NCBI GenBank assembly: GCA_937969495.1 | Contig: CALBVY010000004.1 | Coordinates: 1 to 61,367, forward strand | Origin: an uncultured Verrucomicrobiales bacterium | GTDB taxonomy: Bacteria; Verrucomicrobiota; Verrucomicrobiia; Verrucomicrobiales; Akkermansiaceae | Length of the DNA: 61,367 bases | Direction: 5' to 3' | Part shown: piece after piece, positions 47,328 to 56,838 of the stretch | Layout: every line of letters begins with the position of its first letter | Position numbering within the stretch: the stretch's first letter is position 1 | Translations under genes and position numbers: made by a program | Notes under the pieces: generated by a model | The model's database searches: none | What the model saw: the letters and a program-made list of their open reading frames with translations, nothing else | What the model was told of the DNA's origin: nothing

Positions 47328-48200
47328 TCTGCCACGTATTTAAGAGAAAAAGAAATGGAGCAATCTGGACTTCTTGCCCCAAAATTAGAGCGTGAGTCCG
47401 CCAGCCGCTCTCTCCCCGACCATGTGAAGTAGTTTATTGATGATCTCAAGATCAAGGGGAGAAATGAGCGTTATTGCAAAGGCGTAAACAGCCATATCCA
47501 AAAGCTCTTGAAAGAATGCAAGTGGAGTTTGCGCAAAGATATTAACGCCTATGATTTCATTTTATGGAGAACCAAGCAGAAGGTTACTCCGAAAACGCTC
47601 AATGAATACCTCGCTTCCATCAACGGCTTTCTGAACTGGATGGAGAAACATGGAAGGATCTCTCATCAACCGCTCAAACTCGTTGAGAAGGGAAATATTC
47701 GTGGGAAACAACAAAAACGGAGAGCTATCACCGACGAAGAGTTTCAGAGACTCTTGGCTGTCTCACAGGATTACAGGCTTTGATATTTAACCGCTGCCTA
47801 CACAGGGCTTCGTCTAGGGGAGCTTTCGAGTCTTGTATGGGCAAATGCTTTACTGGATCACGAGCAGCCTCATGTTCATGTGCCAGCCCATCTCACCAAG
47901 AACCGTGCACAGGCAATTGTTCCTCTACATCCGAAGCTTGTATCGGCATTCAGAGAAGAAAAGAAAGATGCTAAGAAAGCAGACTTCATATTTCCTCACT
48001 ACAAGAACCCAGATCCTAGATTCCAGCGTCATCGCAGAGAGGCTGGTATTAAAACGATTGATGAAACGGGCAGAAAACTCGATTTACCTAACAATAAAAT
48101 TGGGACACACGCAGGGACACAAAATGCAGACATTTCGGGTCATTTTCTGTCACAAACCGACACTGAGGAAAAGGAGGTGAAGGAAACTGTAAACCCTTTA
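47324..48200 (+). pseudogene. Tyrosine recombinase (integrase) remnant
   Basis: The first codons read MICHVFKRKRNGAIWT, a typical integrase arm-binding start; a frame change follows by about 47375. The remaining frame runs on with a SAM-like core-binding domain and the first catalytic block YLTAAYTGLRLGELSSLVW (Arg present), then LTKNRAQAIVPLHP. It is broken by TAG at 47430-47432 and TGA at 47781-47783. The segment that should carry HxxR and the catalytic Tyr is missing: the frame jumps from a GRKLD region to a tail. The element is therefore inactive. It ends beside tRNA-Pro, a common attachment site. Confidence 0.85.
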
Positions 48201-48207
48201 AGTATCA

Positions 48208-48243
48208 AAGAAAAGACCACCGAATCGTTAAATTGCGGTGGTC
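48208..48243 (-). terminator. Terminator of tRNA-Pro
   Basis: An 8-bp perfect stem (48215-48222 with 48236-48243) with a 13-base loop is followed on the minus strand by TTTTCTTTG. It lies 7 bases beyond the encoded CCA of tRNA-Pro. Confidence 0.7.
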
Positions 48244-48246
48244 GTA

Positions 48247-48326
<80 letters not shown>

Positions 48327-48557
48327 TAGCCAAAATAATTTACCGTCAGGGTGGACGGCGGGCAGAAACTCTATGATTCGCGCCCAACGATCAAGATTAA
48401 AGTGATAAATCTTGCGTAAAAAAATCTTTTAGCCACATAGATAAAAGATTTTTCAAAGGAAATGTGACAAAACAAACTTTTTATATTATCTACGCGGTTG
48501 TGCAGACGAAAATATTTAGCACATTATAATAAAACAACAACAAGCCCAAAAATACTC

Positions 48558-51793: not shown

Positions 51794-53077
51794 CTAAATT
51801 TTCACCAACGCCGCATCTACTGCTTCCAGCGTAGTATCGATCTCGCTATCCCCATGCGCTACACTAATAAACCCTGTTTCATAAGGACTTGGCGCCATAT
51901 AAACCCCCTGTTCTAACATAGCAGTAAAGAATTTTCTGAAAACTACAGTATCAGCAGTCATAACCGAATCTAAATTAACAATCTCCTCGTTAGTAAAAAA
52001 TAGGCAAAACATAGACCCCACCCGATTAAACTGATACTCCAGCCCTTTCGCTGCCAGTATTTCACGTACACCTACCTCTAATCGCGCACCCATTTTTTCT
52101 AACATACAGTATCCCCCCAGCCTATCCATTTCTCGCAGCTGCGCCAGCCCTGCTGCCATCGCAAGTGGATTCCCACTCAGCGTACCAGCCTGATAAACTG
52201 GCCCATCCGGCGCTAGATAGTTCATAATCTCCGCCTTACCTCCAAATGCCCCCACTGGAAGCCCGCCACCGATCACTTTTCCCATAGCTGTCAAATCGGG
52301 TGTAATCCCCTCTAGCTCTTGCACGCCACCACGCGCTACACGGAAGCCTGTCATAACTTCATCAAAGATAAAAACAGAGCCATACTGCGCCGTTACATCG
52401 CGTAATCCCTGCAAATATCCCTCCTTAGGAAAAATCAATCCAGCATTCGCCGGGTAGCTTTCCACAATCACAGCAGCGATTTGATCCCCCATTTCTGAAA
52501 ACACCGCACGCACTTTTTCGAGATCATTGTAAGGCAGGATAATAGTTTCTGCTGCAAATGCAGACGGCACTCCTGCAGAGTCAGGTTCACCATGTGTTAG
52601 AGCACCAGAGCCAGCTGCCACTAGCAGACTATCGACATGCCCATGATAACAGCCTTCGAACTTGACCACCTTATTTCTACCTGTGTACCCACGTGCTAGG
52701 CGCACCGCACTCATCGTGGCCTCTGTCCCAGAGTTCACCATACGCACTTTCTCCACCGATGGCACCCAGTCTACAATCAGCCCCGCCATCTCCACTTCAT
52801 AGGGATTGGGTATCCCAAATGATACTCCGTCTTTGGCCGCACTTGCAACAGCCTCGAGCACACACTCAGGTGCATGCCCCAAAATCGCAGGCCCCCAAGT
52901 CCCCACGTAATCAATCATCTGATTACCATCCACATCCTCAATCTTGCAACCTTTTGCACGCCGGACAAAAAACGGCTCTCCATCGACATTTTTAAAAGCC
53001 CGCACTGGGGAGTTCACCCCACCAGGGATAGTTTTTTTCGCCGCTTGAAATAACTTATCAGAAAGGTCTCGCTTCAT
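51794..53077 (-). CDS. hemL: Glutamate-1-semialdehyde 2,1-aminomutase
   Basis: A 427-residue PLP enzyme that makes 5-aminolevulinate for heme. The start [25 protein letters not shown] is standard; ATG 53077 is preferred over a TTG at 53115. PLP-site features are [34 protein letters not shown] and the Schiff-base lysine in [17 protein letters not shown]. Length and motifs are complete, indicating C5-pathway tetrapyrrole synthesis. It is divergent from the DUF1080 gene; inverted TTGACG-containing arms lie between them. Confidence 0.96.
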
Positions 53078-53246
53078 ATTAGGTGCTAAGGTGAAAGCCG
53101 AAACCAAATTTGGCAAGCACGAGCCACCATTTCATGCATTTTGATCGTCAAAATAACGAACTCATCAATCCGCCCTATCCAAAAACCGTCGATTTTTATG
53201 TAATTTGACGATGTTACTTGATGTATGCTGTGATATGATCTCAATC

Positions 53247-54023
53247 ATGAGAAATACTCTAGCTATTTTAATTAGCGCTTCCTCTCTTGCATTTGGACAA
53301 AATATGGAAATGTCACCAGCTGAAGACGCGGTCTCTTTATTCGATAGCAAGACCCTCACACAATGGCAGCCAGCCAAGGGAGATGAAGCCTTCTGGTCTG
53401 TCAAAAACGGTGAGATCCTCGGTGGGGATCTCGATAAACCTGTACCACGTAATGTCTGGCTTATTTCTGAGAAGAATTTTGAAAATTTTGAGCTTACCTT
53501 CTCTATCAAATTTACGGATGGAGGTGGGCCGGGGTTAAAAAATTCAGGGGTGCAGGTAAGGAGTTTACCCATGGCGAAAAGCGTCTGTGGCTATCAAATT
53601 GATGCTGGCCCAACTCATGACAAAAAAGTCATTAATGGTGGCCTCGGCTACTGGGGAAACATCTGGGACGAACACCGCAGAGGGCGCCTCGTCACCGCAA
53701 TAAACCAAGACAAACTGAAAGAAAGCATCAAACAGTTCGATGGCTGGAATCACTATAAAATAATCTGCAATGGCACGAATATCAAAACATGGATCAACGG
53801 TATTCTTGTCCACGACTACACTGAAACAAACCTAAAAATAGCAGCCGATGGTATCCTTGCTCTTCAAGCTCACCGTGGAGGAAAGTTCTTAGTTCACTTC
53901 AAAGACATTATGATCAAAGAGCTCCCCGCCACAGCTGGATCACCCAAATGGAGTGACGAAGGTATTATTAAAGGCAAATCCAAGAAGCAGAAAAAAAGAA
54001 AAAAACAAGCTGCTAGAAAATAG
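53247..54023 (+). CDS. Secreted DUF1080 (3-keto-disaccharide hydrolase-like) protein
   Basis: A 258-residue exported protein with a signal peptide (about 1-17, ending SLAFG). The DUF1080 concanavalin-like domain is marked by VSLFDSKTLTQWQPA, FWSVKNGEILGG, VWLISEKNFENFELTFSIKF and the conserved GVQVRSLPMAK, then ILALQAHRGGKF. A basic Lys-rich tail (KSKKQKKRKKQ) ends it. Family members act on 3-keto-glycosides or similar substrates. ATG 53247 gives the best signal peptide. It may be the first gene of a secreted set to 55588. Confidence 0.9.
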   Translation: MRNTLAILISASSLAFGQNMEMSPAEDAVSLFDSKTLTQWQPAKGDEAFWSVKNGEILGGDLDKPVPRNVWLISEKNFENFELTFSIKFTDGGGPGLKNSGVQVRSLPMAKSVCGYQIDAGPTHDKKVINGGLGYWGNIWDEHRRGRLVTAINQDKLKESIKQFDGWNHYKIICNGTNIKTWINGILVHDYTETNLKIAADGILALQAHRGGKFLVHFKDIMIKELPATAGSPKWSDEGIIKGKSKKQKKRKKQAARK

Positions 54024-54083: not shown

Positions 54084-54773
54084 ATGAAACAATTCCTTTT
54101 TTTTCTATCGAGCCTTAGTCTACTGGCCACGGCCCAGGCACGTACTTGGACAAGTGCTGATGGCACAAAGAATTTCTTCGGTATTTATCTCCGCAGTGAT
54201 GACACCTCGGTGACCGTATCCATGGAAGGCAAAGAAGCCACCTTTAAGCTAACGCTACTTTCTGAACCAGACCGCACTTGGGCTAAAACAGAAGAAAAGC
54301 GGCTCACTGATGCAGAACAGAAAGCTACTCCTGAAAAGCCTACACTTGAAACTCAATACATAGGCAAAAAGCTAAAAGGGAAAACATCTAACATACAAAT
54401 GGATCGCTTCAGCCCGATGGACACCCCTAAAGTTCCAGACTATTATTTCTTCTATTACTCGGCTAGCTGGTGAGGCCCCTGCCGCAAACACATTCCACAG
54501 TTAGTGGAGTATTTTTCAGAAAAAATCATCGGCAATGCTAAAGTTGAATTTATTCATGTCAGTCAGGACGAGGATACCAAAGACGCAATTGATTGGGCCA
54601 AAAGCGCTCGATTCCCTTGGCTCACCGTCACTTCCACCAACATCAAGGCAGCAGGCCTTGACACCTATGATGGCGGCACACCCAGCTATGCGCTGGTAAG
54701 CAAACACGGCCGAGTCCTCGCTACCACGGAAGAAAACGCCATAGCTAAAATCAAACAACTCACAGAAAAATAA
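54084..54773 (+). CDS. SHD1-thioredoxin-like protein with in-frame TGA (candidate selenoprotein)
   Basis: A 229-codon frame with signal peptide (about 1-19, ending AQA). A SHD1-like beta domain is at about 20-75 (RTWTSADGTK ... FKLTLLSEPDRTW). A thioredoxin-like domain starts near 112. The only interruption is TGA at codon 130 (54471-54473), between SASW and GPCRKH, exactly where the first Cys of the WCGPC active site belongs. Downstream the frame is intact: PQLVEYF helix, WLTVTS strand, the cis-Pro loop GGTPSYALV and a final helix. It can be read as W-Sec-GPC, or as a gene with a nonsense mutation. No selA, selB or tRNA-Sec is in the window. The two halves should be treated as one gene. Confidence 0.75.
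54492..54510 (+). promoter_or_regulatory. SECIS-like hairpin downstream of the TGA
   Basis: A 7-bp stem (54492-54498 with 54504-54510, one U-G wobble) closes a five-base loop AGUUA. The stem begins 18 bases and the loop 25 bases after the TGA. In my knowledge of bacterial SECIS elements, an apical loop at about 16-37 bases from the UGA with a G among its first two positions is expected; both hold here. Primary-sequence match to a known SECIS was not tested. Confidence 0.45.
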
Positions 54774-54880
54774 ATTTTTTTGAATAAAGATCATGCCCGC
54801 CCCGTCCCAAAACCTATCCCCATGAATTTTATAATTCTCCACTGGCTACACAAAGATTGCTAATTGAACTTTATAGACTA

Positions 54881-55588
54881 ATGAAATTTTACATCTCCCT
54901 AATCTGCCTCGCTGCTACTGTGATTTCAGCTCAGGCGGCTCCCAGAAAATCTCTGCTCAACAATGATCCCAATGTCATCTATCTCAACGAGCATATAGAT
55001 CGTAAAATCTACCTTATGGTCGCTAAAGAAGCTAGCGTCTATAACTCTAAAACAGCCAATCGTAAACTCGGAGTATACCCTGTTAACACCAAATTAGAAC
55101 TCATAGCTATTACCGATAAAGCCTACCAAGTGAAAGGTAAAGCAAAGCACGCAGGCGTTACAGGCTGGGTCAGCCCTAAGCTTCTCGCCTCTACGGATAA
55201 AAACTTCATCGCCAATTTCAAAAAGCTATATGAACGCCAAATGGTGGTTAAAGAGCTCATCGCCAGCAAGGAGGTAGCTATAGGCATGACTCTCGATGAA
55301 GTCACTCAATCCAAAGGAAAACCGACCGAGACCGAGGTCAAACAAACCCGCAAAGGACAATCTGGAAAATGGTCCTACGTCGTTCAAAAAGAACAGAAAC
55401 ACTACCGCACCATTGTCGACTCCCGCACAGGCAACACCTATCGTCAATTCTCCCATATCACCACCGAGGAGAAATCACGTATAACCATAGAATTCGAAAA
55501 CAACACCGTCACCACGATGACCCGCAAGCAGAACAATGGACCAGGTAAAGTGCGTATTATTCCCGCCCCCTTCACCTTCTATTGGTAG
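54881..55588 (+). CDS. Secreted protein with SH3-like and BamE/SmpA-like regions (hypothetical)
   Basis: A 235-residue exported protein with a signal peptide (about 1-19, ending AQA). An SH3-like region lies at about 40-98 (TNTKLELIAITDKAYQV-type strands, then GVTGWVSPKLL). The following segment EVAIGMTLDEVTQSKGKPTE resembles the start of a BamE/SmpA-like fold, which continues in the Lys/Thr-rich C-terminus. ATG 54881 was chosen over TTG 54857 as it opens the signal peptide. It lies 107 bases after the thioredoxin gene, and with it and the DUF1080 gene forms a run of secreted proteins. Confidence 0.7.
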   Translation: MKFYISLICLAATVISAQAAPRKSLLNNDPNVIYLNEHIDRKIYLMVAKEASVYNSKTANRKLGVYPVNTKLELIAITDKAYQVKGKAKHAGVTGWVSPKLLASTDKNFIANFKKLYERQMVVKELIASKEVAIGMTLDEVTQSKGKPTETEVKQTRKGQSGKWSYVVQKEQKHYRTIVDSRTGNTYRQFSHITTEEKSRITIEFENNTVTTMTRKQNNGPGKVRIIPAPFTFYW

Positions 55589-56083: not shown

Positions 56084-56645
56084 TCGAGAGAAACCACAAG
56101 AGCCTTTCAATTAGCCGTCAATGCAAACTGCTCCAAGTGAATAGAAATCTACTTCAACCCAAGCGCGACAACATCAGCGAGGATGACAAACTCATCATGC
56201 GTGAGATCGACATCATCCACCTCAAAGCACCCTTTTATGGGCAACGGAATATCCGGTGGGAGCTGGCGAAAGTAGACTGAAAAATTGGACGTAACCGAGT
56301 GCGCCGTCTGATGCAGATCATGGGCATCGTCTCATTGGCTCCAATGCCTAACACTAGCAAACCCTGCAAAGCCAATAAAGTTTACCCCTATCTCGTCAAG
56401 AAGGATCAAGTCACAGAGGCCAACCAAGTCTGGTGCACTGATATCACCTATCTACCTATGGAAAAAGGACACGCCTACCTCGTCGCCATCATGGACTGGC
56501 ATAGCCGAGCTATCCTCAGCTGGAAAGTCAGTAACAGTATGGACTCTACCTTTTGTATTCAAGCTCTCCGTGAAGCGATGAAAAAAACAGGCACGACATC
56601 ACCATCAGCATGGACGACAAAGGTCGCTGGGTGGACAACTAATAA
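56080..56645 (+). pseudogene. IS3 orfB transposase, broken and truncated
   Basis: The reading frame begins IERNHKSLSISRQC and carries APFYGQRNIRWEL. An in-frame TGA at 56278-56280 follows. It continues to VWCTDITYLPMEKGHAYLVAIMDWHSRAILSW, with the first catalytic Asp. After EAMKKTGT (about 56597) the frame jumps to sequence encoding ITISMDDKGRWVDN in another frame, so the segment with the second Asp (NTDQGSQF in relatives) is deleted and the Glu is lost. Confidence 0.88.
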
Positions 56646-56838
56646 AACTGACAAAATACTTGCTACAATATCGAGACCACTTCAGTTTTTAGACCGATCT
56701 TTTGTGGTTTCTAATGTAGTTACACGGGGCATTTTCAGTAGTCATTACGGCGCAAATCCCGCGTTTATCCGGCGGAATAGTTGCGACCAGTTGCGATGAA
56801 ACTGCGACCTGACATGAAAAAGGGTGCTTCGGGGGTAC

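Follow-up and report, generated by a model that had tools for sequence, protein, structure and literature searches.

Reading frame and domain architecture

The analysed stretch of DNA, hereafter the window, comprises 61,367 nucleotides of a contig from an uncultured Verrucomicrobiales bacterium. On its plus strand we found a frame that starts with ATG, extends over 229 codons to a TAA stop and contains a single internal TGA at codon 130. With UGA translated as selenocysteine (Sec, U), the residues around this codon read ...FFYYSASW-U-GPCRKHIPQLVE... The following features were assigned to the locus:

54084..54773, plus strand: full predicted Sec reading frame, 229 aa with UGA as Sec, TAA stop included
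54084..54140, plus strand: predicted signal peptide MKQFLFFLSSLSLLATAQA, ending before RTWT (hydrophobic start and A-x-A boundary, read from the sequence)
54141..54326, plus strand: SHD1-like N-terminal domain (RTWTSADG...LSEPDRTW) and the following helix (structure model; PF03983 in relatives)
54387..54770, plus strand: thioredoxin-like domain, Thioredoxin_8 (PF13905, PDB sequence matches, fold)
54471..54473, plus strand: TGA, predicted Sec codon, first residue of U-G-P-C (TGA at the same codon in relatives)
54480..54482, plus strand: TGC, Cys 133, second residue of the UxxC pair (invariant in 38 aligned proteins)
54492..54510, plus strand: predicted bacterial SECIS hairpin AUUCCAC-AGUUA-GUGGAGU, 25 nt from UGA to loop (fold and covariation)

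An earlier note on this DNA had placed the TGA at the first Cys of a WCGPC motif and had considered the rest of the frame, including the cis-Pro loop, to be open. Coordinates and reading proved right: the frame runs on to TAA, and the GTPSY loop, which we take to be the cis-Pro loop, is intact, with P200 conserved at 90% or more among the 38 aligned proteins. As the note had also foreseen, the gene is split under translation table 11 into two ORFs (54084-54473 and 54504-54773), and the active site is absent from the second. Homologues spanning the frame with one TGA include L010, the closest relative (69% over residues 1-229), and L011 (56% over residues 13-229). With L010 as the reference for codon-position divergence, we counted 30/26/81 differences at codon positions 1/2/3 over the 129 codons upstream of the TGA and 17/12/41 over the 99 codons downstream, a pattern that looks coding on either side. 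The window contains 13 TGA read-through frames with at least 60 codons before and at least 40 after the TGA, of which, on by-eye reading, only that at 54471-54473 has its TGA inside a redox motif. This, together with the retention of TGA in relatives, agrees with the earlier judgement that a chance stop at exactly this codon is unlikely.

The AlphaFold2 model (38 sequences; pLDDT 92.8) consists of a small N-terminal beta domain and a helix, followed by a thioredoxin fold; its low-pLDDT part is the predicted signal-peptide region. The SHD1-like region is modelled at high pLDDT, with strands at residues 19-24, 30-38, 42-47 and 50-55 and a helix at 61-79. An SHD1 (PF03983) match is not listed by Pfam for the window protein at E ≤ 1, and PF03983 matches 11 of the 38 aligned family members; we therefore use the name SHD1-like. 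Of the SHD1-thioredoxin label given to the gene earlier, the thioredoxin part stands, and the SHD1 part is less firm than it was put, being detected by Pfam in those 11 members and not in the window protein itself. The best Pfam match is PF13905 (33.9 bits vs. a gathering cut-off of 27, residues 119-185), and Thioredoxin_8 is matched in all 38 aligned members at E ≤ 0.01, with PF00085 just below its cut-off in the window protein (23.2 vs. 23.5 bits). None of the 11 NCBIfam families listed exceeds its cut-off, the best being TIGR01068 (21.5 vs. 96.8 bits). By sequence, the leading PDB entries are 2lus ('Thioredoxion', E 1.1e-10) and then tryparedoxin 3s9f (E 1.2e-10). By structure, ResA (1su9_B, E 1.3e-7, TM by target 0.63) occupies the top Foldseek row, and VIA-align places the nematode thioredoxin 4fyu first (Z 14.2) and tryparedoxin 9fov second (Z 13.7, rmsd 2.9, 132 aligned), with tryparedoxins at Z 12.5-13.7; such comparisons speak of fold, not function, and the absence of a family from the VIA-align comparison is uninformative. 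According to simple motif counts, the 62 usable Sec rows of the family (4 rows cut at the 5' end being left out) comprise 46 with an RTWT-like SHD1 start, 8 with a lipobox-like start and 8 with neither.

Conservation of the TGA codon and the selenocysteine pathway

The genes selA, selB, selD and tRNA-Sec, named in the earlier note as those to look for, are all present in the window's own assembly (a 98-contig draft of 2.47 Mb, 96% complete). The tRNA-Sec scores 57.6 bits, over the Rfam cut-off, and is called tRNA-SeC with anticodon tca by ARAGORN; selA (501 bits), selB (308 bits) and selD (377 bits) all exceed curated cut-offs. The set of SelA, SelB, SelD and tRNA-Sec by which a bacterial selenoprotein is judged is hence found here with the best match of each over its cut-off, and since all four sit in this very assembly, absence of Sec machinery is excluded. 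In 14 named control genomes, matches over the cut-off were obtained for selA in 1, selB in 2, selD in 2 and tRNA-Sec in 5. As 5 of 14 controls pass it, the tRNA-Sec model alone is less specific and single matches are no proof; of these five genomes, only E. coli also passes for selA. The SelD frame of the window's genome (L047, minus strand, contig C22) itself carries a TGA, in SCAG-U-ASK, and is a second predicted selenoprotein.

The codon in relatives was examined by a protein search of 58 genomes (the own genome and 57 relatives), in which 27 of the 29 matches at E ≤ 4e-24 have TGA, located at the active-site codon; the two exceptions, L031 and L032, have Cys. When 84,980 species genomes were scanned with a pattern in which the third position of this codon was unconstrained, 62 matches (61 loci) were obtained, 61 with TGA and one with TGC, the latter in a Phycisphaerales MAG. 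The scan pattern fixes part of the hairpin described below; we used that set solely to read the third base and the outer pairs, both left free by the pattern, and kept it out of codon and core-pair claims. Judged by their record titles, the carriers of TGA belong to Verrucomicrobiota (mainly Rubritalea, Roseibacillus, Persicirhabdus, Akkermansiaceae and Verrucomicrobiales MAGs), with the addition of L060, titled only 'Bacterium', and include the named species Rubritalea marina, Rubritalea profundi, Roseibacillus persicicus, Roseibacillus ishigakijimensis and Persicirhabdus sediminis. In a phylum-wide draw of 288 genomes, 59 had a match at E ≤ 1e-30, three of them (G000, G024, G287) with TGA. 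The TGA aligns opposite TGC or TGT in L031, L032, L034-L038 and further relatives, i.e., it is an in-frame UGA aligned with the Cys of homologues, which is a mark of selenoproteins.

In a midpoint-rooted tree of 72 rows, the Sec/Cys labels need two changes. The 63 Sec rows group together with a single Cys row, L031, whose sister is the Sec row L033; the other eight Cys rows cluster outside the Sec group. L031 (G051, minus strand; TGC) has a hairpin, CTCCGC-ATCTG-GCGGAG, at the SECIS place, possibly a fossil SECIS, and selA is still in its genome; the persistence of this hairpin suggests a Sec to Cys reversion. Several copies per genome occur (two in G020, G024, G028 and G034; three in G040). 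The active-site motif is WUPPC in 37 and WUGPC in 26 of 66 rows, with other motifs in the remaining three. L019 and L021 read TUGPC, and L028 reads WUPSA. The last of these (G006, minus strand), which is not among the 38 aligned proteins, has lost the second Cys; tRNA-Sec is present in its genome, no selA was found there, and the gene may be decaying. Duplicates by core sequence (16 of 91 rows, including L025, which equals L024 there) were dropped, and L019, L021 and L028 were added afterwards to the RNA counts.

The distribution of the Sec form follows that of the pathway. Among the 22 relatives that have the Sec form, selA was detected in 20, vs. 10 of 35 others (Fisher p 6e-6), and tRNA-Sec in 18, vs. 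12 of 35 (Fisher p 9e-4), genomes being treated as independent in both tests and the selA of G009 being counted as found though it lies in two pieces below the cut-off. In spite of a Sec gene, selA was not found in G006 and G010, nor tRNA-Sec in G010, both being many-contig drafts. Two genomes with weak protein matches, G050 and G056, carry the TGA form (WUGAC in L125, WUGGC in L126) together with selA and tRNA-Sec; as they were counted among the others, the contrast is understated. These two aside, eight of the 35 others have selA with no Sec gene found, so this selenoprotein gene is not the sole reason to keep the pathway.

The hairpin downstream of the TGA codon

A 24-nt piece of the window that contains the hairpin (54489-54512) folds with -8.1 kcal/mol (z -4.8; an energy this low in 0 of 200 shuffles), and a 54-nt piece with -12.5 kcal/mol (z -2.1; 7 of 200). 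In the description of bacterial SECIS elements given in PMC13188914, the apical loop has 3-9 nt and the upper stem 4-16 bp (legend to its Fig 2A), a G stands first or second in the loop, frequently with a G or U after it, the distance from UGA to loop is 16-37 nt, and the minimum free energy is -7.5 kcal/mol or lower. The window hairpin agrees on each count, with a 5-nt loop on 7 bp, the loop AGUUA, a spacing of 25 nt and both of the above energies. An Rfam search of the region returned two chance-level matches, none over the cut-off. Most family members share the consensus CUCCAC-AGUUR-GUGGAG, which starts 22 bases downstream of the T of the TGA codon.

Covariation was assessed in a set that was not selected for the hairpin, i.e., the 23 Sec genes of the 58-genome protein search plus nine copies (32 sequences, 31 distinct). 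Loop positions G30 and T32 (the second loop U) are invariant in the 32 sequences. All six stem pairs show at least one two-sided change (11 cells in all), and 89.8% of cells are paired vs. 29.6-60.2% in slid versions; with the 31 distinct genes treated as independent, no shuffle out of 500 attains the observed value on the five measures. In a larger, partly pattern-chosen set of 69 sequences (64 distinct), no more than 2 of 500 shuffles equal the observed value on four measures, and 133 of 500 do so for the fifth, further pair types. The pair formed by columns 25 and 37 is mismatched in 8 of the 31 distinct genes, mostly as C-A. A strict scan (at least 4 unbroken pairs, spacing 25, 5-nt loop) recovers the hairpin in 16 of 23 protein-search genes and 29 of 46 pattern genes, and in 54-nt minimum-energy folds, judged by eye, 19 of the 21 Sec rows have the inner pairs, L016 and L029 being the exceptions. 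In some relatives the 24-nt fold is weaker (L130 -4.6, L126 -5.7 kcal/mol), and the hairpins of L130 and L131 are absent from the 54-nt minimum-energy fold and show up in that of the 24-nt piece. A 5-nt G-loop hairpin at SECIS spacing was found in none of the nine Cys homologues.

Could the hairpin be a by-product of conserved codons (CCA CAG TTR GTG) for a PQLV helix, with no SECIS involved? The conservation of PQLV in most Sec members speaks for this, as does the weak RNAalifold energy (-1.55 kcal/mol, only three inner pairs being retained by that program on its own). Yet the hairpin is kept where the residues are altered: L126 forms CGAAAC-AGUUA-GUUUCG (protein TKQLV), L127 CUCCAG-AGUUG-CUGGAG (APELL), L019 and L021 pair CCG with GCG, with Val changed to Ala (PQLA), and L131 has a shifted stem, GACACC-CGGGUU-GGUGUC (TPGLV), in the 24-nt fold only. 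L130 is a further example of a changed hairpin sequence. Codon choice points the same way. At codons +8 to +11 the 23 protein-search Sec genes have CCA/CCG (22), CAG (23), TTR (22) and GTG (21) or GCG (2), so that CAG encodes Gln in 23/23, TTR Leu in 22/22 and GTG Val in 21/21 cases, compared with CAG for 49% of Gln, TTR for 14% of Leu and GTG for 24% of Val elsewhere in 20 of these genes. The probability of TTR in 22/22 would be about 1.6e-19 if the genes were independent, a value that is overstated, the genes being related. The Cys homologues read TPKLV in 6 of 9 cases and use CAG in one, the pattern-selected Phycisphaerales row. We consider a pure codon effect very unlikely. Judging from codon usage, the hairpin RNA also constrains the protein sequence in the PQLV stretch, since its Leu is encoded by TTR in every case and by TTR in only about one case in seven elsewhere.

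A full-length product would be expected too if UGA were reassigned, or decoded by near-cognate Trp, Cys or Arg tRNA, with no selenium involved. TGA terminates 9 of the 38 long non-overlapping ORFs (at least 200 aa) of the window and is therefore a normal stop; moreover, the TGA copies co-occur with selA and tRNA-Sec, the codon stands at the position of a redox Cys, and the hairpin covaries, all of which make such decoding extremely improbable. We assign a similarly slight probability to UGA being a true stop that separates a short secreted SHD1-like protein from a C-terminal piece starting at GTG 54504. Both pieces are indeed ORFs under table 11, and at low selenium a certain amount of truncated protein would be made; against this, the second ORF begins past the active site and, read by eye, lacks a signal peptide, and the stretch from the stop to GTG 54504 is conserved both as protein and as RNA. 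That a Cys codon mutated once to TGA or was misread in this assembly has a next to negligible probability: a single base would turn TGC or TGT into TGA, and the assembly is a draft in 98 contigs, but many other genomes, those of named strains included, have TGA at the same codon, divergence is of the coding type on either side of it, and the hairpin covaries. The sharing of the codon by other genomes and the covariation of the hairpin likewise make it very unlikely that resequencing would read TGC or TGT at 54471-54473.

Proposed function and relation to known thioredoxin-like proteins

The gene very probably encodes an exported selenoprotein in which UGA at codon 130 is read as Sec by means of SelB and the hairpin. 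The replacement of the first active-site Cys by Sec, put forward in the earlier note as a candidate, thus appears strongly supported by the machinery, the conserved TGA and the covarying SECIS. From these sequence data, our confidence is high that the protein is a selenoprotein and low as regards its substrate. SelA, SelD and tRNA-Sec would make Sec-tRNA, and SelB would bind the hairpin, with its loop 25 nt after the UGA, and deliver Sec at codon 130, allowing the ribosome to pass the UGA and complete the 229-residue protein. The predicted signal peptide would then carry the protein out of the cytoplasm. As family membership suggests, Sec130 would act as the nucleophile and Cys133 would resolve the mixed bond, within a thioredoxin domain joined to the SHD1-like domain. 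The most likely role would be that of a fast thiol-disulfide reductase for extracytoplasmic proteins; electrons might be supplied by the DsbD-like protein of the genome, in which one DsbD_TM protein was found. If Sec were not delivered, a 129-residue SHD1-like protein lacking the redox centre would presumably result.

Sec thioredoxins and thioredoxin-like UxxC selenoproteins are already known (PMC9312934, PMC13188914, PMC1088965, PMC2398784), and the Verrucomicrobiales protein is a lineage-restricted member of this group. The nearest family listed, by description, is the thiol-disulfide isomerase-like selenoprotein of the Sargasso Sea, a UxxC protein assigned to pfam13905 in PMC9312934 and to cd02966 in PMC13188914, and given with 4 sequences from marine metagenome data in PMC1088965; the likeness, drawn from the descriptions in these sources, lies in UxxC and the Thioredoxin_8 model. 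MAK15852.1 and MGB1650493.1 are sequences of that family. The Sec-containing Trx (pfam00085, UxxC; PMC9312934, PMC13188914) likewise has Sec for the first Cys of a WCGPC-type site. In contrast to it, the Verrucomicrobiales protein has a predicted signal peptide and mostly an SHD1-like domain, and fits Thioredoxin_8 best, with PF00085 just missed. With the extracytoplasmic thiol-disulfide oxidoreductases of the ResA/TlpA/StoA types it shares an exported thioredoxin fold, ResA being the top Foldseek row, but Sec replaces Cys, an SHD1-like domain is present, and none of the NCBIfam models of these types reaches its cut-off on the window protein.

Tryparedoxins, the cytosolic Cys proteins of protists with the motif WCPPC, resemble it in fold and by detectable sequence kinship with those of trypanosomatids, and comparable scores are obtained with other proteins of the thioredoxin fold. 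WUPPC, the motif seen most often in the Verrucomicrobiales family (37/66 rows), resembles WCPPC; to our knowledge, tryparedoxins carry neither a signal peptide nor SHD1.

Among the literature matches listed, no title or abstract opening deals with this selenoprotein in Verrucomicrobia; the main texts of PMC9312934 and PMC13188914 contain no mention of 'Verrucomicrob', and SHD1 is absent from that of the latter. To a broader proposal we give an even chance, namely that these proteins form an undescribed family of extracytoplasmic SHD1-linked seleno-tryparedoxins with a single Verrucomicrobiales origin, followed by spread and duplication, in which PQLV is fixed by the SECIS and the protein follows the RNA. 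If this is true, these bacteria would carry out some of their selenium chemistry outside the cytoplasm. Under the standard code TGA terminates the frame, so that in many Verrucomicrobiales annotation would break an exported redox enzyme into pieces. The family also provides a natural case of an intragenic RNA signal, with six covarying stem pairs, that shapes both codons and amino acids.

The neighbouring genes gave no functional clue, either in the window or in the relatives' loci, which are of limited length. A gene read as hemL (51794-53116, minus strand) is also a neighbour of the Sec gene in four further genomes of the genus (loci L010/L057, L011, L012/L067 and L014/L103, of limited length). 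Two further neighbours, likewise named by reading, are found near it in one other genome each: a DUF1080-like gene (53205-54023; L010 and L057) and an SH3-like gene (54857-55588). A tyrosine recombinase/integrase-like ORF (47508-48329, by reading) has a TGA at 47781 and looks decayed rather than Sec-containing. A transposase-like ORF (56299-56799, by reading of VWCTDITYLPME...) follows the selenoprotein gene at a distance of about 1.5 kb.
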